From: Gemmata palustris
GTDB lineage: Bacteria > Planctomycetota > Planctomycetia > Gemmatales > Gemmataceae
Reading direction: 5' to 3'
NCBI RefSeq assembly: GCF_017939745.1
Contig: NZ_JAGKQQ010000001.1
Span: 5,518,001-5,582,000 of the forward strand
DNA length: 64,000 nt
The notes below the pieces were generated by a model, which was given only the letters and a program-made list of their open reading frames with translations, had not been told where the DNA came from and searched no databases. Within the stretch, counting starts at the first letter, position 1, and each line of letters begins with the position of its first letter. Shown here piece by piece: positions 5,887 through 54,501 of this stretch. Position numbers and translations under genes: made by a program.

Positions 5887-8331
5887 TCAGTGCTGTAACA
5901 GGAACTCGCGCGTGTTGATGACCGCCCACACCAGATCGCGCACCGCGTCCGGGCGGTTCGCGGCCTTTTTCAGGTGGTCGGCCACCTTCTTCCGCTCGGC
6001 TTCGTTGGGTAATCGAGTGAATGCCGCGAGCCAGAGGTGCTCGGCCAGCTCCGCGTCCGTGAGTTTCGCGAACGCATCGGCGGACCCGCTCACGCGCCCG
6101 GCCACGAGCGGGCCGTTGAGCAACTGCAGTGCCTGATCGACGGTCGGCTCGTCCACGCGCTCGCACGCACACGGACTTTCGCGCTTCGGCTGGCCGAACG
6201 CCATGAGGAACTGCGACTGCTCGGGCGTGAGGCGCTGCGTTGCGTAGGAGGTGCGGTCCTTCAACCGGCGCAGGGCGGTTTGTTTGGCTTTATCTGCGGG
6301 CGCTGCGGCGAGTTCGGTCTCCGCCTTTGTGATCTGTGCTCCGAGATCGACCGGAGGTGCCAGGCTCCCGGTCGCGTAGCCGATCGCGTCCTGCATCTGC
6401 TCGGCGGTCAACCTGCGGATCGGGTAGCGCGAGAACAGCGCGTCGTCCGTTTCGTTGAACTTGTTCGTCGCGGTGGACCGCTGGTAAGTGCGGCTGTTGC
6501 ACATGAGCCGGAGAATGTGTTTGCGATCGAAATTGCTCCGCTCGAACTCGCTCGCGAGTGTGTCCAGGAGTTCGGGAATCGCCGGCGGGTTCGAGGAGCG
6601 GAAGTCGTCCACAGGATGAACGATCCCGCGCCCGAACAGCCCGAACCACATCCGGTTCACCTCGACGCGCGCGAAAAACGGGTTGCCCGGCTTCGTGAGC
6701 CAGCGCGCGAACGCGACCCGGCGATCCGCCTTCGGATCGGTTACCACATCGCCGAACGGGGTGAGTACCTTGCCGCTCGTGGGGTGCGTCGTCTCGCCGG
6801 TGGTACCGGCCGACACCACTTTGCCCGTCTTCTTGACGCGAGTGAACACCGCCGCAATGCGGAAATAGTCCTCCTGGGTCCAGTTCTCGAACGGGTGGTT
6901 GTGGCACTTCGCACAGTTCACGCGCGATCCCATGAACAGTTGCGCGGTCGTCTCGGCGAGGTCTTCGAGGTTCGGGATCGCGAGGAAGTAGTTCGCGGTG
7001 GGCACCTTCGCGGCGTCGCCGGTCGCAGTGAGTAGCTCGGTCGCGACCTTGTCGAACGGCGCGTTCTTGCGGTAGCTCTCGACGAGCCAGTCCGCGAGCA
7101 GTTCCGCGCGACCTTCGGGAAGCGTTTTGGAGTTCACGCGCATCAAATCCGCTGTGCGTAGCGCCCAGTATCGTGCGAACTCCTCCGACGCGAGCAACTC
7201 GTCAATGACCTTCGCGCGCTTGTCGGCGGTTGTGTCCGCGAGAAAGGCTTTCGCCTTTTTCGCAGGCGGGAGCAAGCCGGTAAGGTCGAGGTAGACGCGG
7301 CGCAAAAAGGTCGCGTCGTCGCAGGTGCCCGACGGCAGTACGCGGAGCTGGTTGAGCTTCGCGTGAACGTGCTTATCGATGAAGTTCGCTTCTGCGGGGT
7401 TGTTCCAGACGAACCCCTCCACCTCTTCGGTCATCGTGAAGTGAACCGATTCGAGGTGATTGAGGTAGCGAACGGAAACGGCCCCTTGACCGCGCTTCGC
7501 ACCCGTAACCAATCCCGTATCGGAGGCAGATAGCACGTCCTTGTGCGACACTTCGTAGGTGGCGAGTGCGGTCACATCGCGGGTGGTGCCGTCGGCGAAC
7601 TTGGCGATCACGCTGAGTTGCTGTGCGAGGTTCGGCGCACGCAGAATGCGGTTCGGACCCGGATACACCACGAGTTGCACGCACGCGGGTTGCTTGTCAT
7701 CATCCGTTTTGGCCCCCTGCGCGATCCAGTCCAGGAGCACGCGGTAACCGAGGTCGCTCTTATTGAGGCGCTTCCCTCCAACGTGCGGGACGCGCATCAG
7801 CGGCTTCTTGAGTACCAAACTGTCCGCCGGGGTGAACGCATCGACGCGCCGATTGAGTCCGCCGCGAACGAGGCTCTCCGCGTCAATGCCCGGATCGTAG
7901 CCGAACAACGACAGTCGGAACCCGCCCTTCCCTTCCGGCGAGCCGTGACAGGAACCGCCGTTACACCCCTGCTTGGTCATCACCGCGAGCGTTTCTGTGC
8001 GGAACCGCATTGGGTCGGGCTCGCTCTGGCCACTCACTTCGACCGGCACTTTGATCGTGTGCCCACCCACAGCCACCGCAATCTCTCCCCGCCCGTTCTT
8101 CTTGGGCGCGACTACGCCATCGCGTATTTCGACCACGGGCGCGGGCGGAGTAAAAGTCGCGTCGCGCGTGAGGTCGCGCGTCTCGCCGGTCGCGAAGTGC
8201 CCGGTGACAACGAGTTGACACACCGCGCGCGGGGACGTGAGCGTGACCTTCGTGGGGTACACCTCGATGCGCGCCGGAGCATCGGCGGGGGCCGCGAGAG
8301 TCGCACCGAGCAGTAGCGTGAAGATCGTCAT
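5887..8331 (-). CDS. DUF1549/DUF1553 exported protein with Ig-like N-terminus (PSCyt2/PSD1)
   Basis: An 814-residue exported protein of the planctomycete DUF1549 plus DUF1553 family. The start at 8331 gives the signal peptide FTLLLGATLAAPADA. An Ig-like (BIG2-type) domain follows (about 20-110: IEVYPTKVTL, then GETRDLTRDATF). A conserved GCNGGSCHG segment near residue 130 has a CX4CH haem-like motif, and a second Ig-like stretch comes after it. DUF1549 contains NCAKCHNHPF, a standard CxxCH. DUF1553 closes the protein with VNRMWFGLFGRGIV and the C-terminal helices. It lies 19 bp after the 98-residue gene and 25 bp before the Cys protein. The role is unknown; members usually pair with DUF1501 genes, as here. 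Family assignment is secure. Confidence 0.92.
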   Translation of the reverse strand: MTIFTLLLGATLAAPADAPARIEVYPTKVTLTSPRAVCQLVVTGHFATGETRDLTRDATFTPPAPVVEIRDGVVAPKKNGRGEIAVAVGGHTIKVPVEVSGQSEPDPMRFRTETLAVMTKQGCNGGSCHGSPEGKGGFRLSLFGYDPGIDAESLVRGGLNRRVDAFTPADSLVLKKPLMRVPHVGGKRLNKSDLGYRVLLDWIAQGAKTDDDKQPACVQLVVYPGPNRILRAPNLAQQLSVIAKFADGTTRDVTALATYEVSHKDVLSASDTGLVTGAKRGQGAVSVRYLNHLESVHFTMTEEVEGFVWNNPAEANFIDKHVHAKLNQLRVLPSGTCDDATFLRRVYLDLTGLLPPAKKAKAFLADTTADKRAKVIDELLASEEFARYWALRTADLMRVNSKTLPEGRAELLADWLVESYRKNAPFDKVATELLTATGDAAKVPTANYFLAIPNLEDLAETTAQLFMGSRVNCAKCHNHPFENWTQEDYFRIAAVFTRVKKTGKVVSAGTTGETTHPTSGKVLTPFGDVVTDPKADRRVAFARWLTKPGNPFFARVEVNRMWFGLFGRGIVHPVDDFRSSNPPAIPELLDTLASEFERSNFDRKHILRLMCNSRTYQRSTATNKFNETDDALFSRYPIRRLTAEQMQDAIGYATGSLAPPVDLGAQITKAETELAAAPADKAKQTALRRLKDRTSYATQRLTPEQSQFLMAFGQPKRESPCACERVDEPTVDQALQLLNGPLVAGRVSGSADAFAKLTDAELAEHLWLAAFTRLPNEAERKKVADHLKKAANRPDAVRDLVWAVINTREFLLQH

Positions 8332-8350
8332 TGAATCCGTTTCGTGGGGC

Positions 8351-8647
8351 TTACGCTTCGGGAACCTCAACTCGACACAAGCGCTCGCGGTGGAAGATCG
8401 CCAGTACCAATTTGACCGCCACGGCCGGGCGCACGCGCTCGCGGGCCGTTTCGTGGAGCGCCGGCTCGTAAACGACATCGACCAAGCCGTCGGCCGCGCT
8501 ACGAACGGTGGCCTCCATACGACCGCGCCGGAGCACCGCGCTCGCCCGGCCCTCTTGAATCGCGCACTGATTCTCGGGCCACGGGAGCGACTTCAACAGC
8601 GCGAGTGTTTCAGCAAGGGGAGTCATCCGAATCTCGGCGAGCGTCAC
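8351..8647 (-). CDS. Small protein of unknown function translationally coupled to the DUF1501 gene
   Basis: A 98-residue protein that I do not recognise. Its GTG start (8647-8645) overlaps the TGA stop of the DUF1501 gene in a GTGA arrangement, the classic sign of translational coupling. The downstream DUF1549/DUF1553 gene begins 19 bp after its stop. It has no signal peptide, membrane helix or metal motif. It reads as a mixed alpha/beta protein with an RxGRMEATVRSA strand and a hydrophobic VAVKLVLAIF helix near the C-terminus, and Cys at 28 and near 90. Coupling and tight spacing argue that it is genuine and works with its exported neighbours, although it looks cytoplasmic. Confidence 0.6.
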   Translation of the reverse strand: MTLAEIRMTPLAETLALLKSLPWPENQCAIQEGRASAVLRRGRMEATVRSAADGLVDVVYEPALHETARERVRPAVAVKLVLAIFHRERLCRVEVPEA

Positions 8648-11770: not shown

Positions 11771-11833
11771 GAATGAGCAGTGGCCGCAAGGGAGCGCTGG
11801 CGCCTCCCGCTTCCTTGCGGCCACTGCTCATTC
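11771..11833. repeat. 25-bp inverted repeat between convergent genes
   Basis: Arms 11771-11795 and 11809-11833 (GAATGAGCAGTGGCCGCAAG at the outer part) match with one mismatch around a 13-base loop. It lies midway between the ends of the nuclease gene (11684) and the DUF4139 gene (11896). Ahead of it, 11690-11745 is an A-rich CCACAAAAAGACACAAAGAG tract; a related CCACAAAGATACGAAGG tract occurs near 19749. It could serve as a bidirectional terminator or be a dispersed repeat. Confidence 0.6.
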
Positions 11834-22313: not shown

Positions 22314-22387
22314 CCTGGGACCGCGGGCGTCCCGCCCGCTGCTTCGGACTAACTCAAAACAGCGGGCGGGACGCCCGCGGTCCCAGG
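22314..22387. repeat. Perfect 28-bp inverted repeat between divergent genes
   Basis: Arms 22314-22341 and 22360-22387 are perfect complements (core GGGACCGCGGGCGTCCCGCC) with an 18-base loop. It lies between the divergent S9 peptidase and ThuA-like genes, 28 bases before the latter's ATG. There is no T-run. The self-similar GGGCGTCCCGCCCG core resembles dispersed REP-type elements. Confidence 0.75.
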
Positions 22388-23429: not shown

Positions 23430-23883
23430 GAATCCGTGTTCCGGTCGTTCGGCCGTGTCGGGTGCAGTTAGCTCGGTGGTTTCCACCAGGATGATGTTGC
23501 GTCATCCGAGCACTTGCTTTTCGACCCTCCGCGGGGACCGCTGTTCCAACACCGCTATCCGGACGATTTGGGAGCGGATCAAGAATCCGCTCCCAATCGG
23601 GGCCAAAGTCGAGTGCGTGCTTGTGGCCAATAGCGTGATGATCCACGGACCACTTCCTGCTTGAGCGCGGTATCGAATAAGTTATCCTGCTGGACGTTAC
23701 ACAGACGGTTGCCGGTCGATCTCTGCACTCGTTTGTTTCAAGGGACAAACGAGTGCAGAGATCGACCGGCAAATTCTAAGTTCGGTTCTCGTCGAACGTC
23801 TCGTCCCTCCAGTGGTCCGGGCAACTGATACGCTCGAAGAGAGCGGCGCAGAAGGGGCCGGTAGGGTTCCAGAAAGTCAACGA
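23430..23883. repeat. Non-coding stretch with two hairpins
   Basis: No credible gene. Two inverted repeats stand out. TTGGGAGCGGAT (23568-23579) pairs with 23585-23596. A perfect 26-bp pair, 23711-23736 and 23745-23770 (GCCGGTCGATCTCTGCACTC at its start), has an 8-base loop. The second lies about 110 bases before the start chosen for the next gene. Both may be dispersed palindromes. Confidence 0.65.
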
Positions 23884-29589: not shown

Positions 29590-29630
29590 CTTCCTTTGGG
29601 AAATGCGGGCTTAACGAGATCGGGTGCTCT

Positions 29631-29735
29631 TCAGTGTGGTCCGCTCGCTCCGCGAGCGGTTGGCTCCCGCGCTAGAGTTACTGCTCTAGCATCGGAGGCT
29701 CAAGATCCGCTCGCGGAGCGAGCGGACTACACTGA
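29631..29735. repeat. 30-bp inverted repeat with nested hairpin
   Basis: Outer arms 29631-29660 and 29706-29735 (GTCCGCTCGCTCCGCGAGCG core) match except at two positions. Inside is a second hairpin, GCTAGAG (29671-29677) with CTCTAGC (29684-29690). It lies between the convergent 28822 gene and the VanX-fusion gene and probably ends transcription or marks a dispersed element. Confidence 0.7.
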
Positions 29736-29839
29736 AGCGTATCCCTTTGTGTGGAAGTTGCTTCCCGCTTCCTTGCGGCCTCGGTGTACGAAAGAAGCAA
29801 GCGCCACGGCCCCGGTTCACTGCCGGGGCCGCGTTGTTT

Positions 29840-32188: not shown

Positions 32189-32383
32189 GACGTCTCCTCG
32201 AAGTGGTGTGCGGTGTCTGTGTACAGGATTTGTGACGAGCCGGGAGCGTGAGAGGAGAAGCTCGCGCCTCGGCCCGGAGAGGTAACGGCCAGACGAAGAC
32301 GCCAGAACAAGTCTCGCGTTCAAGCGACCGGCACCAGTATAATGCCAACCTCACCGAATCGCCTCCCCACCGATAACTCACCC

Positions 32384-35077
32384 ATGCGATCCTCCGCCAC
32401 TCTCGCATGCGCCCTCTTGCTCGCGACGCTCGCCAAACCCACCGAAGGGTTTGGTGAGCAGCCACCGACTGCTCCGACCGCGCCGCCGGTCGCGGTGGAG
32501 GCTCCGGTCGATTTCGCGCGCGACGTGCGGCCCATTCTGTCGAGCCAGTGCTTTGCGTGCCACGGGCCGGACGAAAAGGTCCGCAAGGCGAAACTGCGGT
32601 TGGACGTGCGCGAGGACGCCATTAAATCGGGCGCCCTCGTTCCGGGGAAGCCGGACGCGAGCGAGGTGTTCACTCGCATCTGTACGACCGATCCCGAACA
32701 GCGTATGCCGCCCGCGAAGTCCAAGAAGCCGGCGCTTACCGAGGCGCAAATCAAGACACTGCGGAAGTGGATCGCGGACGGGGCGAAGTATTCCGAACAC
32801 TGGTCGTTCGTGCCAGTGAACCGACCGGACGTTCCGAAAGCCAAGGTCCAATCCGCGAACCCGATCGATGCGTTCATCCGCGCGCGGTTGCAAAAAGAGG
32901 GCGTTGCCCCCGCGAAGGAAGCGGACCGCGTCACGCTGATCCGCCGACTGTCGTTTGATCTCACCGGGCTACCGCCGAAGCCGGAAGACGTGCGCGCCTT
33001 TGTAAACGACAAAGACCCGAAGGCATACGAGAACCTCGTCGAGAAGCTGCTCGCGTCGCCGCACTACGGCGAGCGCATGGCGGTGTGGTGGTTGGACCTC
33101 GTGCGGTTCGCGGACTCCGCGGGTTATCACAGCGACAACCCCATCAACGTGTCGCCGTACCGCGACTACGTCATTCGGAGCTTCAACACGAACAAGCGGT
33201 TCGACCAGTTCACCGTTGAACAACTCGCGGGAGATCTGTTGCCCAACGCGACGATGGAGCAGAAGGTCGCGAGCGCGTACAACCGCCTCCTGCAAACGAC
33301 GGAAGAGGGCGGCGCGCAGGCGAAGGAGTACGAGGCGAAGTACGCGGCCGATCGCGTGCGGAACTACGGGCAGGTGTGGCTCGGCGGCACGCTCATGTGT
33401 GCCGAGTGCCACAACCACAAGTTCGACCCGTATACCCAAGCGGACTTCTACTCGGTGGCCGCGTTCTTCGCCGACATTCAGGAGCCCGCGATCGGCAACC
33501 GCGGCCCCGGTGTGCCCGTACCGTCCTCGCCCGAACAGGACGCGGAACTGAAGCGCCTTACCAGCGCGATCCCCGTCGCGCAGACGAAACTCGATGCGGC
33601 CGCGAAGACGTTTGCCGAAAGCGCGAAGGCGTTCGAGAGCGCAGAGAAATGGCCCAACCCGAAGCCCGACAAAAAGGGTGCGGCGGTTACCGTTCCCAAC
33701 GACGTAAAGGCAATTCTCGCGAAGGACGTCGACAAACGAACTGCCGCGGAGAACGGGCGCCTCGTGGCCTTCGCACGCGACAACGCGCCCGATCTTAAAT
33801 CTGAGCGCGACGCCTTCGCTACCGCGACAAAGGCGCGGGCGGATTTCGAGAACGCCCTGCCGCACGTCCTCATTTCCATCAGTGGCTCGCCGCGCACGGT
33901 GCGCATCTTGCCGCGCGGCAACTGGCTCGATGAAACCGGCCCCGTCATGAAGCCGAACGCGCCGGGGTTCCTTCCCCCTCTTCCGCCACTCGCCGGGGGG
34001 ACGGGGCGCTACACTCGACTCGATCTCGCGAAGTGGACCGTTTCGGCCGAGAACCCGCTCGTCGCACGCGCCACCGTTAACCGGCTCTGGCGCCTCTTCT
34101 TCGGCTACGGCATCGCCCGCTCGCTCGAAGAAACGGGCATTCAGGGTGAGCAGCCGACGCACCCCGAACTGCTCGACTGGCTCGCGAGCGAGTTCTCAAA
34201 CCCCTCCCCAACCCCTCCCCCAAAGGGAGAGGGGCTAAAAAGCATCAAGGGTTCTGCTCTCCCTTCGACTTCTGGCTCTTCTCCCCCTTCCTTTTTAGGG
34301 AAGGGGGTTGGGGGGTTAGGTTCTTCTTCGTGGGACGTGAAGCACCTCGTCCGGCTGATGGTCACGTCGGCCACATACCGGCAATCGTCGGTGGAAACGC
34401 CCGCGGTCCGCGAGCGCGACCCGATGAACAAGCTGTTCGCACGCCAGACGCGCCAGCGCCTCGACGCCGAGTTCATCCGCGACACCGCGCTGTCTGTGAG
34501 CGGGCTGTTGAACTCGCAAATCGGTGGCCCGAGTGTGAAGCCCTACCAGCCGGCCGGGTACTGGGCCGCACTCAACTTCCCGGTGCGCGAGTGGCAGAAG
34601 GATGCGGGCGACAAGGTGTACCGGCGCGGGATGTACACGCACTGGCAGCGCACGTTCCCGCACCCGGCGATGGTCGCGTTCGATGCGCCGAGCCGCGAAG
34701 AATGCACCTGCGACCGGCCGAAGTCGAACATCCCGCAGCAGGCGCTCGTGCTGCTCAACGACCCGGAGTTCGTGGAGGCGGCCAAGGCGTTCGCAGCGAA
34801 GGCGCTGAAGGACGGCGGCGCGACCGACGACGCGAAAGTGGCGTGGGCGTTCGAGCGCGCCACCGGTCGTGTCGCGAAGCCCGAGGAGACTCAAGTGCTA
34901 CTGAGTGTGCTGAACAAGCACCGCAAGCAGTTCGCGGACAAGCCGGACGACGCGAAGAAACTCCTCGCGATCGGCGACATGCCGGTGCCCAAGGATACGA
35001 AGCCCGAGGAACTTTCCGCATGGGTGAGCGTGTGTCGCGTGATCCTGAACTTGCACGAGACGATCACGAGGGAGTGA
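32384..35077 (+). CDS. PSCyt1-DUF1549-DUF1553 exported protein carrying an in-frame palindromic insertion
   Basis: An 897-residue exported protein with a signal peptide (ACALLLATLA) and an N-terminal cytochrome c domain (haem motif CFACH, later RMPPAKSKK). DUF1549 follows (RLSFDLTGLPPKPEDV, then MCAECHNHKFDPYT with a second CxxCH), then DUF1553 (VNRLWRLFFGYGIA and SATYRQSS). About 45 residues before WDVKHLVRL are foreign (SNPSPTPPPKGEGL to GVGGLGSSS, about residues 605-650). In the window's other family member only four residues separate LASEF from FDRKHILRL. The DNA there (34198-34320) is a degenerate inverted repeat. It precedes a DUF1501 gene by 71 bp, likely one operon. The insertion is probably a surface loop. 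Confidence 0.9.
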   Translation: MRSSATLACALLLATLAKPTEGFGEQPPTAPTAPPVAVEAPVDFARDVRPILSSQCFACHGPDEKVRKAKLRLDVREDAIKSGALVPGKPDASEVFTRICTTDPEQRMPPAKSKKPALTEAQIKTLRKWIADGAKYSEHWSFVPVNRPDVPKAKVQSANPIDAFIRARLQKEGVAPAKEADRVTLIRRLSFDLTGLPPKPEDVRAFVNDKDPKAYENLVEKLLASPHYGERMAVWWLDLVRFADSAGYHSDNPINVSPYRDYVIRSFNTNKRFDQFTVEQLAGDLLPNATMEQKVASAYNRLLQTTEEGGAQAKEYEAKYAADRVRNYGQVWLGGTLMCAECHNHKFDPYTQADFYSVAAFFADIQEPAIGNRGPGVPVPSSPEQDAELKRLTSAIPVAQTKLDAAAKTFAESAKAFESAEKWPNPKPDKKGAAVTVPNDVKAILAKDVDKRTAAENGRLVAFARDNAPDLKSERDAFATATKARADFENALPHVLISISGSPRTVRILPRGNWLDETGPVMKPNAPGFLPPLPPLAGGTGRYTRLDLAKWTVSAENPLVARATVNRLWRLFFGYGIARSLEETGIQGEQPTHPELLDWLASEFSNPSPTPPPKGEGLKSIKGSALPSTSGSSPPSFLGKGVGGLGSSSWDVKHLVRLMVTSATYRQSSVETPAVRERDPMNKLFARQTRQRLDAEFIRDTALSVSGLLNSQIGGPSVKPYQPAGYWAALNFPVREWQKDAGDKVYRRGMYTHWQRTFPHPAMVAFDAPSREECTCDRPKSNIPQQALVLLNDPEFVEAAKAFAAKALKDGGATDDAKVAWAFERATGRVAKPEETQVLLSVLNKHRKQFADKPDDAKKLLAIGDMPVPKDTKPEELSAWVSVCRVILNLHETITRE
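34198..34320. repeat. Palindromic repeat element inserted in frame in the DUF1553 gene
   Basis: The left half is an ACCCCTCCCC-rich tract with CCAAAGGGAGAGGGGCTAAAAA. The right half, read in reverse complement, gives CCTAACCCCCCAACCCCC and CCCTAAAAAGGAAGGGGGAG, so the ends pair with mismatches. It contains no stop codon in the reading frame of the host gene, which therefore stays open. Pyrimidine-rich blocks of this kind are typical of intergenic repeats, not coding DNA. Confidence 0.75.
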
Positions 35078-38900: not shown

Positions 38901-41900
38901 ATGATCGCACGGTTCTTCATTGATCGGCCCATCTTCGCCACCGTCCTCTCGGTGGTGATTACCCTCGCCGGGGCGATGGCCGTCGGGTCGTTGCCCGTCT
39001 CGCAGTACCCCAAAGTCACCCCGCCGACGATCCAGATCGACTGCAACTACCCCGGCGCCAGTGCGCAGGTCGTGTCCGAGACGATCGCGTCGCCCATTGA
39101 GCAACAGGTGAACGGCGTCGAAGACATGCTGTACATGACCTCGCAGTGTACGAGCGACGGGACGTACACGTTGACGGTCACGTTCAAGAGCGGCACGGAC
39201 CTGAACATGGCCCAGGTGCGGGTGCAGAACCGCGTCAACCTCGCGTTTCCGCAACTGCCCGAAGTGGTCCGCGCCACCGGCATCACCACGCGGAAGCGGT
39301 CGCCCGAACTGCTCATGACGGTCGGGATCACGTCCCCGCCGGAGCCGGGGCTGCCCGAGGGCCGGTACGATCAGCTCTACCTGAGCAACTACGCGGTCCT
39401 GAAGCTCAAGGAAGAACTGCAGCGGTTGCCGGGCATCAGCGACGTGACCATCTTCGGCCAGCGCGACTACGCGATGCGCCTGTGGGTGGACCCGGACAAG
39501 CTCGCCGCCCGGAACCTCACCGCGGCCGACGTGATTCTGGCGCTCCGGCAGCAGAACCTGCCCATCGCGGCCGGGCAAGTGGGGCAACCACCCAACGGGT
39601 CCGGGCAGCCGTACCAGTTCACGCTCACCGCGCTCGGCCGGCTCGAGGACGTCGAACAGTTCGAGCAAATCGTCGTGAAGGCCGGCCCGCAGGGGCAACT
39701 GGTAAAGGTGAAGGACATCGCCCGGGTGGAACTCGGCGCGAAGTCCCACGACGTCGCTAACCGGTTCGACGACAAGGCCACCGTCGGCCTCGCCATCTTC
39801 ATTCTGCCCGAAGCCAACGCCATCGAAACGGCGGAGGCGGTGAAGGGGCACATGGCGAAGATGGGCACGGACTTCCCGCCCGGCATCACCTACGAAATCG
39901 GCTACGACACCAGCCCGTTCATCCGCGAGTCCATCTTCGAGGTGTTCAAGTCGCTCCGCGACGCGATCGTCCTCGTTGCAATTGTGGTACTCGTGTTCCT
40001 GCAGACGTGGCGCGCCGCGTTCATCCCGCTCGCCGCGGTTCCGGTCGCCATCATCGGCACGTTCGGCGCGATGGCGCTGGCCGGGTTCACGATCAACAAC
40101 CTGACGCTGTTCGGTCTGGTGCTCGCCGTGGGCATCGTGGTGGACGACGCCATCGTCGTCGTCGAGGCCGTTCAGCACCAGTTGGAGAAGGGCTTCACTC
40201 CGCGCGAAGCAACGTTGCGCGCGATGGAGGACGTGTCCGGCCCCATCATCGCGGTCGGCGTCGTACTCGGCGCGGTGTTCCTCCCGTGTGCGTTCCTCTC
40301 GGGGATCGTGGGGGCGTTCTTCCGGCAGTTCGCGCTCACGATCGCGGTCAGCACGCTGATCTCCACCTTCAACTCGCTCACGCTCAGCCCGGCGCTGTGC
40401 GCGCTGCTGCTCAAGGGGCCGCCCGACCCGACGCGGAAGCGATCGATTTTCGCGGTCCTGATGGGCTACGCCTTCTTCCCGCTGACGTACCTGGGGCAGT
40501 TGTTCAACCGGGTGTTCGCGACCGTGAACCGCGGGTACGTGAAGCTCGTCAGCCTCGGGCTGCGCGTGCCGCTACTGGTTCTGGCCGGGTACGGGGCGAT
40601 CGTCGCATCGGGCATGGCCGCGTTCCGCACGCAGCCCACCGGGTTCATCCCGCAGCAAGACAAGGGCTACATGATTTGCAGCGTGCAGCTCCCGGACGCA
40701 GCGAGCGCCGAGCGCACGCGCGAGGTGATGTCGAAGATCAGCCGGATCGCGCTGGAGACGGAACTGGACGACGGCACCGGCAACAAGGTGCGCCCGGTGC
40801 GGCACGTGAACGCGGTCGCGGGCAACTCGTTCGTCATCAGCGCCTACGGCTCGAACTTCGGCTCCATGTTCGTCATCCTCGACGACTTCGAGAACCGGCG
40901 CTCGAAGACCCTCACGGCCGACGCGATCGCGATCGAGTTGCGGAAGCGGTTCAACATGCTCTGCCCCGAGGGGCAGGTGCAGGTGTTCGGCGCACCGGCG
41001 GTGTCCGGGCTCGGGCGCGCCGGCGGGTTCCGCATCATGATCGAGGACCGCGGCGACGTCGGCCCGGCCATGCTTCAGCAGCAAACGGAAGCGTTCATCG
41101 ATAAGGCGAACCAGCAGAAGCAGGTGGTCGGGCTGTTCACCGTGTTCAAGACCAATTCGCCGCAACTCGTGCTGTCCATCAACGTTGATGCGTGCCTGCA
41201 GCGCCAGGTGGACGTGGGGGACGTGTACGCGGCCCTCCAAGGGACGATGGGCAGCCGGTACGCGAACGACTTCAACCGGTTCGGCCGCACGTGGCAGGTG
41301 AACGTGCAAGCGGACGACCGGTTCCGGGACCAGTTGGAAGACGTGAAGCGCCTGAAGGTGCGGAACAAGAAGGGCGACATGGTGCCCCTGGGCGCACTGC
41401 TGACCGTGAACGAGCGGAGCGGGCCGCTGGTCATCACGCGGTACAACATGTACCCGGCCGCGGCGGTGAACGGCAACGTGTCGGCCGGGAGCAGCACCGG
41501 CGACGCCATCGGGATGCTCGAGAAGCTCGCCGAGCAGCAACTGCCCGACAAGATGGCCTACGAGTGGACGGAACTCACGTTCCTCGAAAAGCAGTCGCGC
41601 AACACGGGCGGGCTGGTGTTCGGGCTGTCGGTCGCGTTCGTGTTCCTGATCCTCTCCGCGCTCTACGAGAGCTGGGCGTTTCCGCTGGCGGTGATCCTCG
41701 TCGTGCCGGTGTGCGTGGCGTGCTCGCTCGGCGCGGTGTGGCTCAGCGACCCCGGGTCCGCGACGCAGCAGGTTCTGCAGTGGAACGCGGGCGACGGCCC
41801 CGAGTTCCTGAAGCTGGGGCCGTGGGCACTCGGCGCCGCGGGGTGGACCGACCGGGTGCTCATCGGCAACGCCAACAAGTGGGTGCTCGCGTCCGGCATC

Positions 41901-42563
41901 GGCAAGCAGGACGTGAACATCTTCACGCAGGTCGGGTTCGTGGTGCTCGTGGGGCTCGCGTGCAAGAACGCCATTCTGATCGTCGAGTTCGCGAAGATTG
42001 CGCGCGACAAGGGCGCGGACCTGAACGCGGCGATCCTGGAGGCGTGCGCGCTCCGGTTCCGGCCGATCATGATGACGTCGGTCGCGTTCATGCTGGGCGT
42101 GGTGCCGCTCGCGATCGCGAAGGGCGCGGGGGCCGAGATGCGCCAGGCGCTGGGCGTGGCCGTGCTGGGCGGGATGCTCGGGGTGACCGCGTTCGGCGTG
42201 TTCCTCACGCCCGTGTTCTTCGCCCTCATGGACCGCCTCGTGCGCCGCACGCGGCGCCTGACGGGGCACTCCCGGGTGATGTCGCTGGCGGAACTGGCAC
42301 TCGTCCTTGTTGCCATCCCGGGGATGCTCCTCGCGATCGAGTTCGGGTCCGAGGCGCTGCTTTACGAGATCCTGTTCGGGTTCGTCGGCCTGCTCCTCGC
42401 GGTGTTCCTCGGGATGCTGGTCATCGCCACCGGCGACACGGTGGGCACGCTCGGCGGCGCCGTGCAGGGGGCCAGTCGCATCGTGCTCGCGGTCCCGACC
42501 CGGACCGCCCGGCGGCTCGGCGACGTCGTGCGCAAGATCCGGGCGCGCGGCGGAACGAAGTAA
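38901..42563 (+). CDS. RND efflux permease, HAE1 family (first of two)
   Basis: A 1220-residue HAE1 (AcrB-type) proton-driven drug exporter. The N-terminus MIARFFIDRPIFA, the FNSLTLSPALCALLL helix, the proton-relay VGIVVDDAIVVVEAV with paired Asp, and the C-half LACKNAILIVEFAK with its conserved Lys are all present. Two unusual features: an insert of about 50 residues (roughly 948-1003) between the VWLSDPG helix end and QDVNIFTQVGF, absent in the second permease at the same spot; and a C-terminal extension of about 100 residues (from about 1120) with two more membrane helices. It is followed by a 323-bp repeat-filled spacer and a second permease gene. One adaptor gene serves both. Confidence 0.95.
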   Translation: MIARFFIDRPIFATVLSVVITLAGAMAVGSLPVSQYPKVTPPTIQIDCNYPGASAQVVSETIASPIEQQVNGVEDMLYMTSQCTSDGTYTLTVTFKSGTDLNMAQVRVQNRVNLAFPQLPEVVRATGITTRKRSPELLMTVGITSPPEPGLPEGRYDQLYLSNYAVLKLKEELQRLPGISDVTIFGQRDYAMRLWVDPDKLAARNLTAADVILALRQQNLPIAAGQVGQPPNGSGQPYQFTLTALGRLEDVEQFEQIVVKAGPQGQLVKVKDIARVELGAKSHDVANRFDDKATVGLAIFILPEANAIETAEAVKGHMAKMGTDFPPGITYEIGYDTSPFIRESIFEVFKSLRDAIVLVAIVVLVFLQTWRAAFIPLAAVPVAIIGTFGAMALAGFTINNLTLFGLVLAVGIVVDDAIVVVEAVQHQLEKGFTPREATLRAMEDVSGPIIAVGVVLGAVFLPCAFLSGIVGAFFRQFALTIAVSTLISTFNSLTLSPALCALLLKGPPDPTRKRSIFAVLMGYAFFPLTYLGQLFNRVFATVNRGYVKLVSLGLRVPLLVLAGYGAIVASGMAAFRTQPTGFIPQQDKGYMICSVQLPDAASAERTREVMSKISRIALETELDDGTGNKVRPVRHVNAVAGNSFVISAYGSNFGSMFVILDDFENRRSKTLTADAIAIELRKRFNMLCPEGQVQVFGAPAVSGLGRAGGFRIMIEDRGDVGPAMLQQQTEAFIDKANQQKQVVGLFTVFKTNSPQLVLSINVDACLQRQVDVGDVYAALQGTMGSRYANDFNRFGRTWQVNVQADDRFRDQLEDVKRLKVRNKKGDMVPLGALLTVNERSGPLVITRYNMYPAAAVNGNVSAGSSTGDAIGMLEKLAEQQLPDKMAYEWTELTFLEKQSRNTGGLVFGLSVAFVFLILSALYESWAFPLAVILVVPVCVACSLGAVWLSDPGSATQQVLQWNAGDGPEFLKLGPWALGAAGWTDRVLIGNANKWVLASGIGKQDVNIFTQVGFVVLVGLACKNAILIVEFAKIARDKGADLNAAILEACALRFRPIMMTSVAFMLGVVPLAIAKGAGAEMRQALGVAVLGGMLGVTAFGVFLTPVFFALMDRLVRRTRRLTGHSRVMSLAELALVLVAIPGMLLAIEFGSEALLYEILFGFVGLLLAVFLGMLVIATGDTVGTLGGAVQGASRIVLAVPTRTARRLGDVVRKIRARGGTK

Positions 42564-42579: not shown

Positions 42580-42808
42580 CTTTGCCCTCTCCCGCAAGGG
42601 GAGAGGGCGGCGAGGCTTTGCGAGACGGGTGAGTGACTGTGTTGAATTGGGCGCTTGTCGTTTTGTTCACAAGCGGGACGCGCCGCAATTCAACACATGT
42701 CACTGTTGGTCCTTCGGACATACCAGGGGTGGCTTCCGCACTCAGGGCGCCACCCCTCACCCCGCCGCGAAGCGCGGCGACCCTCTCCCGCAAGGGGAGA
42801 GGGCAAAG
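42580..42808. repeat. Nested palindromic element between the two permease genes
   Basis: The 42564-42886 spacer has no gene. Its ends carry CTCTCCCGCAAGGGGAGAGG copies (42587-42606 and again near 42784-42803), each self-complementary. Broader arms of about 53 bases pair imperfectly across the element. The interior has a second pair: GTGTTGAATTG near 42640 with CAATTCAACAC near 42700. The whole folds on itself and looks like a miniature mobile element or repeat cluster. Confidence 0.65.
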
Positions 42809-51184: not shown

Positions 51185-51244
51185 TCGGCGCGGTTTTTCA
51201 GCCTCATCCCTTTGCGATACTGCGTTGAAACGATGAGTTTCGCC

Positions 51245-51318
51245 TTTGGTTTCGTGGCACAGGTCTCTGGCCTGTGTGTAAGACTTCACAGGCCAGAGAC
51301 CTGTGCCACGAAACCAAA
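51245..51318. repeat. Perfect 32-bp inverted repeat
   Basis: Arms 51245-51276 and 51287-51318 are exact complements (GGTTTCGTGGCACAGGTCTC part) with a 10-base loop. It lies between the NHLRC2-like gene (ends 51184) and the DsbD-alpha-like gene (starts 51385). It could end transcription or block readthrough; it has no T-run. Confidence 0.75.
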
Positions 51319-51384
51319 GACTCAAACCTTCAACACAGCAGGCTTGTGAGACGGGTAAGTCAGAAAGGCTCAGGAGATTCACCG

Positions 51385-54351: not shown

Positions 54352-54375
54352 GAGGCTGATAGGCTGATAGTATTC

Positions 54376-54474
54376 ACCGCCGAGGGCACGAGAGGGCGCG
54401 GAGAAAAGCAAAGACCTGAGTAACTTACCTCAAGGTCTTTGCTTTTCTCCGCGCCCTCTCGTGCCCTCGGCGGT
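54376..54474. repeat. Perfect 42-bp inverted repeat between convergent genes
   Basis: Arms 54376-54417 and 54433-54474 are exact complements over 42 bases (inner part GGAGAAAAGCAAAGACCT) with a 15-base loop. It is the longest palindrome in the window. It starts 25 bases after dsbD stops and ends 28 bases before the convergent 54502 gene ends, so it can act as a two-way terminator. Confidence 0.85.
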
Positions 54475-54501
54475 TAAACGCTTTTGCGAATCGCGTTTCG
54501 G

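Follow-up and report, generated by a model that had tools for sequence, protein, structure and literature searches.

A dispersed palindromic repeat lying in frame within a DUF1549/DUF1553 gene of Gemmata palustris

Rickettsia provides the best-known case of palindromic repeats inserted in frame into protein-coding genes, one that is easily explained by the weak selection acting on a reduced genome. Here we describe a stretch of 64,000 nucleotides (nt) from the planctomycete Gemmata palustris (the window; C1:5518001-5582000 of a 9.23-Mb genome in three contigs, G000), in which a palindromic element of 124 positions interrupts a gene of the DUF1549/DUF1553 type without breaking its reading frame. 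Copies of this element lie in frame elsewhere in the same 9.2-Mb genome, including in pheT, mfd, tilS and queG, for which a second gene copy was not found there.

Rickettsia palindromic elements are described as palindromes of about 150 bp that form several families with many copies, lie in frame in unrelated genes and encode peptides (PMC10969869, PMC3733652). The Gemmata element resembles them in being a dispersed palindrome of about 100-150 bp that is inserted in frame in many unrelated protein genes. It differs in the open frames on two strands that were measured here and in that unrelated families reuse identical loops. The initial annotation of the window had already likened the element to those of Rickettsia. 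What stands of this likeness is the in-frame position in unrelated genes; the host, however, is a planctomycete with a genome of 9.2 Mb. The comparison holds in the sense that both kinds of element work alike, not in the sense of membership.

A second point of comparison is offered by the repetitive extragenic palindromes (REPs), GTAG- or CGTC-tagged, which are mostly intergenic, with intragenic copies in several species, including uvrA of Opitutus terrae (PVC group) and DNA-repair and tRNA genes; in two Xanthomonas, different REPs are found at approximately the same site of recB (PMC3733652). Like REPs and the paired arrangements known as bacterial interspersed mosaic elements (BIMEs), the Gemmata element is an inverted pair of short hairpin units, and DNA-repair and tRNA genes are likewise among those that contain copies. 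Unlike them it is not predominantly extragenic, since its strong copies are genic about as often as random positions (41 of 53 lie in a shared coding frame). Enterobacterial RU/ERIC elements, finally, are small mobile repeats whose open frames can be fused in frame to genes (PMC2759123). The passages of that source that we examined do not describe conserved enzymes in which one loop is used again and again, as is seen here.

Among the literature matches listed (titles and openings of abstracts, with subscription papers outside this set), none reports in-frame palindromes in Gemmata. The kind of element is known already, whereas the proportion lying in genes, the two-strand frame design and the reuse of a loop by unrelated families were not found among the matches listed.

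The interrupted loop and its reuse

The host gene (32342-35077, forward strand; ORF list and Pfam) encodes a protein of 911 amino acids with PSCyt1, PSCyt2 (DUF1549) and PSD1 (DUF1553) domains. Its open reading frame (ORF) is free of stops along the full length, so that the frame stays open through the insertion, as the initial annotation had noted. Comparison with orthologues delimits an expanded loop at 34196-34330 (forward strand) between LASEF and WDVKHLVRL. Here 135 nt separate LLDWLASEF from WDVKHLVRL and read SNPSPTPPPKGEGLKSIKGSALPSTSGSSPPSFLGKGVGGLGSSS in frame, which amounts to 45 codons (against 3 in empty orthologues) and agrees with the roughly 45 residues estimated earlier. The element itself occupies 34199-34322 of the forward strand (match of the family model R1 at C1:5552199-5552322, 131.8 bits; alignment A1), and the span of 34198-34320 first assigned to it was correct to within a few bases. 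At this position the Pfam PSD1/DUF1553 match is split: profile positions 1-62 stop at C1:5552198 and positions 63-243 begin at 5552322 (34198 and 34322 in the window). A paralogue in the window (5887-8478, reverse strand; ORF list and Pfam) lacks the insert and has, as was also stated at first, only four residues in its place (ERSN).

The inverted repeat seen initially has arms at 34206-34224 and 34295-34313 that are 79% complementary. To these the family consensus adds two internal hairpins on the forward strand, one in the 5' half of the element (34212-34234; A1 columns 15-37) and one in the 3' half (34283-34307; columns 86-110). The element ends pair as well (34203-34209 with 34312-34320, spanning 34203-34320 of the forward strand; columns 6-12 with 115-123). 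Between the hairpins, repeat analysis reveals a spacer with an imperfect 24-nt tandem step (34250-34290, forward strand; 34250-34266 and 34274-34290). The loop of the G008 orthologue is 24 nt shorter than that of the window, with the frame kept.

Because the repeat is dispersed in the genome, the inverted repeat is more than a product of chance, and the loop of 45 residues is accounted for by a dispersed 124-nt palindrome sitting there in frame. Insertion, dispersal, an intact frame in this genome, openness on both strands and the reuse of loops are established by the data. As an overall explanation we consider it very probable that a dispersed, REP/BIME-like palindrome was inserted into the DUF1549/DUF1553 loop with the frame left intact and that it is in all likelihood translated. 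The ribosome would then read the element as a disordered loop rich in Pro, Gly and Ser. When the window protein was modelled with AlphaFold2 from 25 sequences (pTM 0.72, mean pLDDT 73.0), residues 631-660 had a pLDDT of approximately 30 and lacked secondary structure, between a helix at 608-619 and another at 666-674; the insert is thus predicted to be a floppy loop joining two helices. If the insert is translated, GSALPSTSGSSPPSFLGK would be a tryptic peptide from its interior and GVGGLGSSSWDVK a junction peptide.

Orthologues of the host gene were examined in 14 of 18 same-genus relatives and in four more distant relatives. The loop measures 9 nt (3 codons) in 11 of the 14, and 12 nt in three of the four more distant ones. 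Two close orthologues carry the same element, that of G008 with 111 nt in frame and that of G010 with 110 nt, and orthologues both with and without the repeat therefore exist. The two remaining loops hold other palindromes: one of 39 nt in G003, which belongs to the same genus, and a third kind in the 54-nt loop of G022, a more distant relative. Each of these is itself dispersed in its genome, with 195 matches at up to 2 mismatches in G003 and 43 matches at up to 3 mismatches in G022 (controls 0 in both cases). Consequently, a single loop of 3-4 residues in one protein hosts three repeat families without evident sequence relation. In the initial annotation, orthologues having the same loop with different DNA were to speak against an insertion. 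Such DNA does occur in G003 and G022, but as it consists of dispersed palindromes it extends the earlier reading instead of overturning it.

It might be argued that we are dealing with a native, variable DUF1553 loop that is palindromic by chance. Indeed, six paralogues (L109, L100, L108, L102, L116 and L115) have loops of 27-60 nt that are mostly not obviously palindromic. The insert, however, is a dispersed repeat, and the length of the PSD1 loop is otherwise strict: among 136 distinct resolved loops (window excluded) 88 measure 12 nt and 23 measure 9 nt (111 together), whereas loops of at least 100 nt were found solely in G000, G008 and G010 and all contain palindromes. A native origin therefore has next to no probability in our view.

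Five PSD1 genes of the own genome (the window gene and four paralogues) carry the element, all at the identical loop and all in sense orientation; by length alone about one element would be expected in PSD1 genes (a rough estimate based on 62 genes of 2.7 kb). PSD1 genes are split at the same loop four times in G008 and six times in G010, and one of the G008 copies (L122) lies there in the opposite orientation, again in frame. The loop is a hotspot, and it is so also for other palindrome families.

Such hotspots need not result from survival in tolerant loops alone; they could also follow from the DNA target specificity of the mobilising enzyme or from insertion into older elements. The five own-genome copies with their shared orientation and loop fit this explanation, as do the native loops of L116 and L115, which begin with GTCAACCCC or GTGAACCC and so resemble the element end, and the nested or tandem elements known at L078, L121 and L124. 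It is less easily reconciled with the inverted but in-frame copy at L122, with the unrelated families that occupy the same loop in G003 and G022, and with the presence of both orientations elsewhere (15 sense and 26 antisense among the 41 same-frame places described below). Moreover, AACCCC is absent from the empty same-genus orthologues of the window gene. We regard target choice as unlikely, though far from negligible. The reuse of one loop by unrelated families makes the question of enzyme choice versus survival testable.

The repeat family and its reading frames

With 40 of 174 initial candidates scored, the genome holds at least 52 DNA matches to the element (E <= 0.001), and 36 full copies could be aligned over 125 columns (A1). 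The first half of the element begins with AACCCCTCCCCAACCCC and a hairpin; a variable spacer follows, and then a second hairpin ending in GGGGGTTAGGTT. Judged from the alignment, the halves seem to be related to each other by inversion, as in REP/BIME pairs. The element ends are a short AACC...GGTT. An end motif TTAG is found in 33 of the 36 copies and GTAG in the other 3 (read from A1, its orientation relative to the stem not being matched to the published GTAG definition); in this dominance of TTAG the family may depart from REP/BIME. Covariation is slight, with a double change in 1 of 26 pairs, and the palindrome therefore characterises the family at the DNA level and is no proof of an RNA structure.

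The frames of the element are far from random. In 49 simple copies, sense frame 0 is free of stops in 44 and antisense frame 2 likewise in 44, whereas the remaining four frames are open in 6, 5, 1 and 0 copies; in shuffled sequence about 25% are open per frame. Element lengths are almost all 1 mod 3. The family could thus be termed frame-transparent: given this length and one stop-free frame per strand, a copy that enters a tolerant loop in the proper phase would leave a readable gene in either orientation.

A search of the genome with the covariance model R1 yielded 140 matches, in which both strands of one palindrome were often counted. After merging, 81 places were classified, of which 53 are strong (>=84 bits) and 28 weaker. 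To judge the flanks, the best coding strand and frame were determined in 240 nt on each side, using codon log-odds for which the longest ORFs from 30 PSD1 loci served as the training set. The flanks agree in strand and frame at 41 of the 53 strong places, and at every one of these the frame continues across the repeat without a stop; for unrelated flanks the chance of agreement is 1/6 (p = 4e-22). The count of copies within and between genes that the initial annotation had called for thus shows a dispersed repeat that mostly lies in coding frames. Among the weaker places 16 of 28 agree in frame, and 12 are open. Random gaps of 124 nt at the same loci show agreement in 387 of 561 cases (Fisher p = 0.27 against 41/53), from which it follows that the family does not avoid genes. 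Whether length modulo 3 could reveal selection at individual sites was considered and rejected, as 10 of the 12 places that are not same-frame are 1 mod 3 as well.

Copies at other genic positions would have been purged, in which case the visible ones would mark loops that tolerate insertion, and these loops may then be struck again by the own family or by others. On balance we lean towards a wider picture, in which several unrelated Gemmata palindrome families, of which one or more would be frame-transparent in both directions, repeatedly colonise the same tolerant loops of conserved, even essential, proteins, and so provide a natural insertion map together with a supply of new loops. Through loop reuse, nature itself lists the sites at which conserved enzymes tolerate insertion.

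Host proteins and their counterparts in relatives

Pfam matches are found in 38 of the 41 host ORFs (33 of 36 scanned plus the five PSD1 genes), and in 21 of the 41 they flank the element on both sides (16 by position reading plus the five PSD1 genes). The latter count omits L174, where a sulfatase and BNR domains surround the element within a single ORF that may be a fusion of two genes. It also omits L179, L067, L073 and L175, for which the second matched stretch comes without a position. In six hosts a single Pfam model spans the element (QueG, AMP-binding, TilS, glycosyltransferase, PheT and MobA-like).

Despite the insert, 8 of 10 proteins scanned pass an NCBIfam equivalog or equivalog-domain cut-off: PheT (652.7 against a cut-off of 402.65), UvrA (1285.1 against 1147), SelB (365.3 against 242.25), RecD2 (876.8 against 500), QueG (333.3 against 200), TilS_N (165.4 against 93.6), ThiL (238.4 against 184.15) and, narrowly, Mfd (800.5 against 800, its ORF being cut by the locus end). 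The cleanest case is PheT, with a net insertion of 96 nt here and an empty site in G008 and G010; at the insertion point the aligned PheT of PDB 2rhs passes from residue 538 directly to residue 540. The joined flanks of ten hosts were used to search the own genome (PheT, TilS, QueG, Mfd, MobA-like, ADH, CCA-like, SMUBP-type helicase, UvrA and ABC, with SelB, RecD2 and ThiL outside this set), and no second, uninserted copy of any of them was found, UvrA-type paralogues excepted. Probably, dozens of proteins in this bacterium, including products of housekeeping genes, carry a foreign loop. The uvrA ORF with the insert (L048; C1:1680868-1686180) is itself unusual: it comprises 2412 amino acids with repeated UvrA-type matches, as if UvrA units had been fused, and uvrA of G008 and G002 resembles it.

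Frames might also be kept by accident, if the long ORFs that contain these G+C-rich repeats were spurious or the genes were in decay. Long overlapping ORFs are certainly common (126 of at least 150 amino acids in the 64 kb), and the coding score is weak on one side of some copies. This is difficult to combine with curated cut-offs passed by most scanned hosts, with Pfam matches on both sides of half of the 41 elements, and with the absence of second copies for the ten genes searched apart from the UvrA type. We consider an accident highly improbable.

Ten host sites outside the PSD1 genes were compared with relatives, and could be resolved at 10 sites in G008, 9 in G002, 6 in G004 and 10 in G010. 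In the first three genomes the loop length is always a multiple of 3 (10/10, 9/9 and 6/6), and a net insert of at least 45 nt is present at 17 of these 25 sites (9/10 in G008, 4/9 in G002 and 4/6 in G004; G010 adds 9/10). Some of the inserts in relatives are other palindromes, such as CCCTCTCCCCTTGCGGGAGAGGG in the helicase of G004 and GGAATTCGGAATTCGGAG in QueG of G002.

These counts also bear on the idea that the insert is removed by RNA excision, or bypassed by the ribosome over a hairpin, with the protein left unchanged. Bypass elements elsewhere are prone to form hairpins, and the predicted RNA folding of the window element is strong (-62.4 kcal/mol, z = -2.39). The frame-broken copies of G010, plus one in G008, would moreover do no harm if the segment were skipped. 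A skipped segment, however, needs neither freedom from stops nor a length that is a multiple of three, whereas all 41 same-frame places are open and all 25 loops of G008, G002 and G004 keep the multiple of 3. Removal at the RNA level or during translation is accordingly quite improbable.

Several results weigh against our reading of the copies as translated parts of working genes. In the own genome 12 of the 53 strong places lack a shared frame, and the copies there may lie between genes or disrupt them; if a threshold of 0.1 is applied to both flank scores, only 29 of 53 remain same-frame and open. The gene calls depend on codon scores, and 3 of the 41 ORFs have no Pfam match. The length of 1 mod 3 in 10 of the 12 places that are not same-frame indicates that length is inherited within the family and is not selected at each site. 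Two of the ten proteins scanned (RarA-like and CCA-like) pass no NCBIfam cut-off. For the best 30 of 133 matches in G008, 20 are same-frame and 19 open, on a background of 234/360. In the one-contig G008, one of four PSD1 sites is out of frame (L121, 181 nt). In the draft G010 only 4 of the 10 compared sites have loops whose length is divisible by 3, and at one of those four, QueG, the sequence includes Ns and the match is interrupted by a stop. Four of the six PSD1 sites of G010 are broken, three by length (110, 130 and 152 nt, the first being the orthologue of the window gene) and one by stops (L124). None of the five PSD1 sites of the own genome is broken.

The breaks in G010 were first read as pseudogenes, but a comparison of homopolymers makes this less likely. 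In G010, 5 of 10 copies have a run of four G in place of five after GGGAA, while 1 of 60 copies in G000 and none of 35 in G008 are shortened in this way. The shorter runs suggest that homopolymer errors in the draft are a likelier cause of the frame breaks in G010 than real disruption. Gene models that run through the repeats at the G010 loci L085, L123-L127 and L249-L257 may be broken in the same way. For genome annotation in general it matters that inserted loops of this kind resemble assembly errors or lineage-specific domains.

Mobility and further palindromes

Our leading guess is that the element is mobilised in trans by a Y1 tyrosine transposase. The genome contains three Y1_Tnp matches, and BLAST at E <= 1 on the corresponding loci of 3.2-3.3 kb found no element near any of them. 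A link to a REP-associated tyrosine transposase (RAYT) was therefore rejected, and the family differs in this respect too from REP/BIME, as such a linked Y1 transposase was not found. As regards miniature inverted-repeat transposable elements (MITEs), for which terminal inverted repeats with a target-site duplication are typical, the observations are the short AACC...GGTT ends and, at PheT, the sole clean empty site examined, no clear duplication; the PSD1 loop varies too much to allow a judgement.

A related family of approximately 129-135 nt, reading PTPPAPLPEGKGE...SPFPSGRGAGGVG and represented among the weaker places of the R1 search, is present in open frames at five loci of the own genome (L194, L197, L201, L204 and L208), for example inside penicillin amidase and PNKP-type ligase genes. 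A further palindrome, with CCCCGACCGCAAGGTCGGGG, was observed in the 57-nt loop of the own-genome PSD1 paralogue L103, at the place where the other PSD1 genes are split.

The window seems to be rich in several palindrome families. An inverted repeat with CCCTCTCCCGCAAGGGGAGAGGG lies at 42580-42808, directly after the ORF at 38901-42563, and a similar palindrome is found in the helicase-gene loop of G004 (L225, 141 nt, a multiple of 3). Further inverted repeats, differing in sequence, are located at 22314-22387, 23709-23772, 29622-29744, 54373-54477, 51244-51319 and 11771-11833, the first four of which fall between long ORFs.

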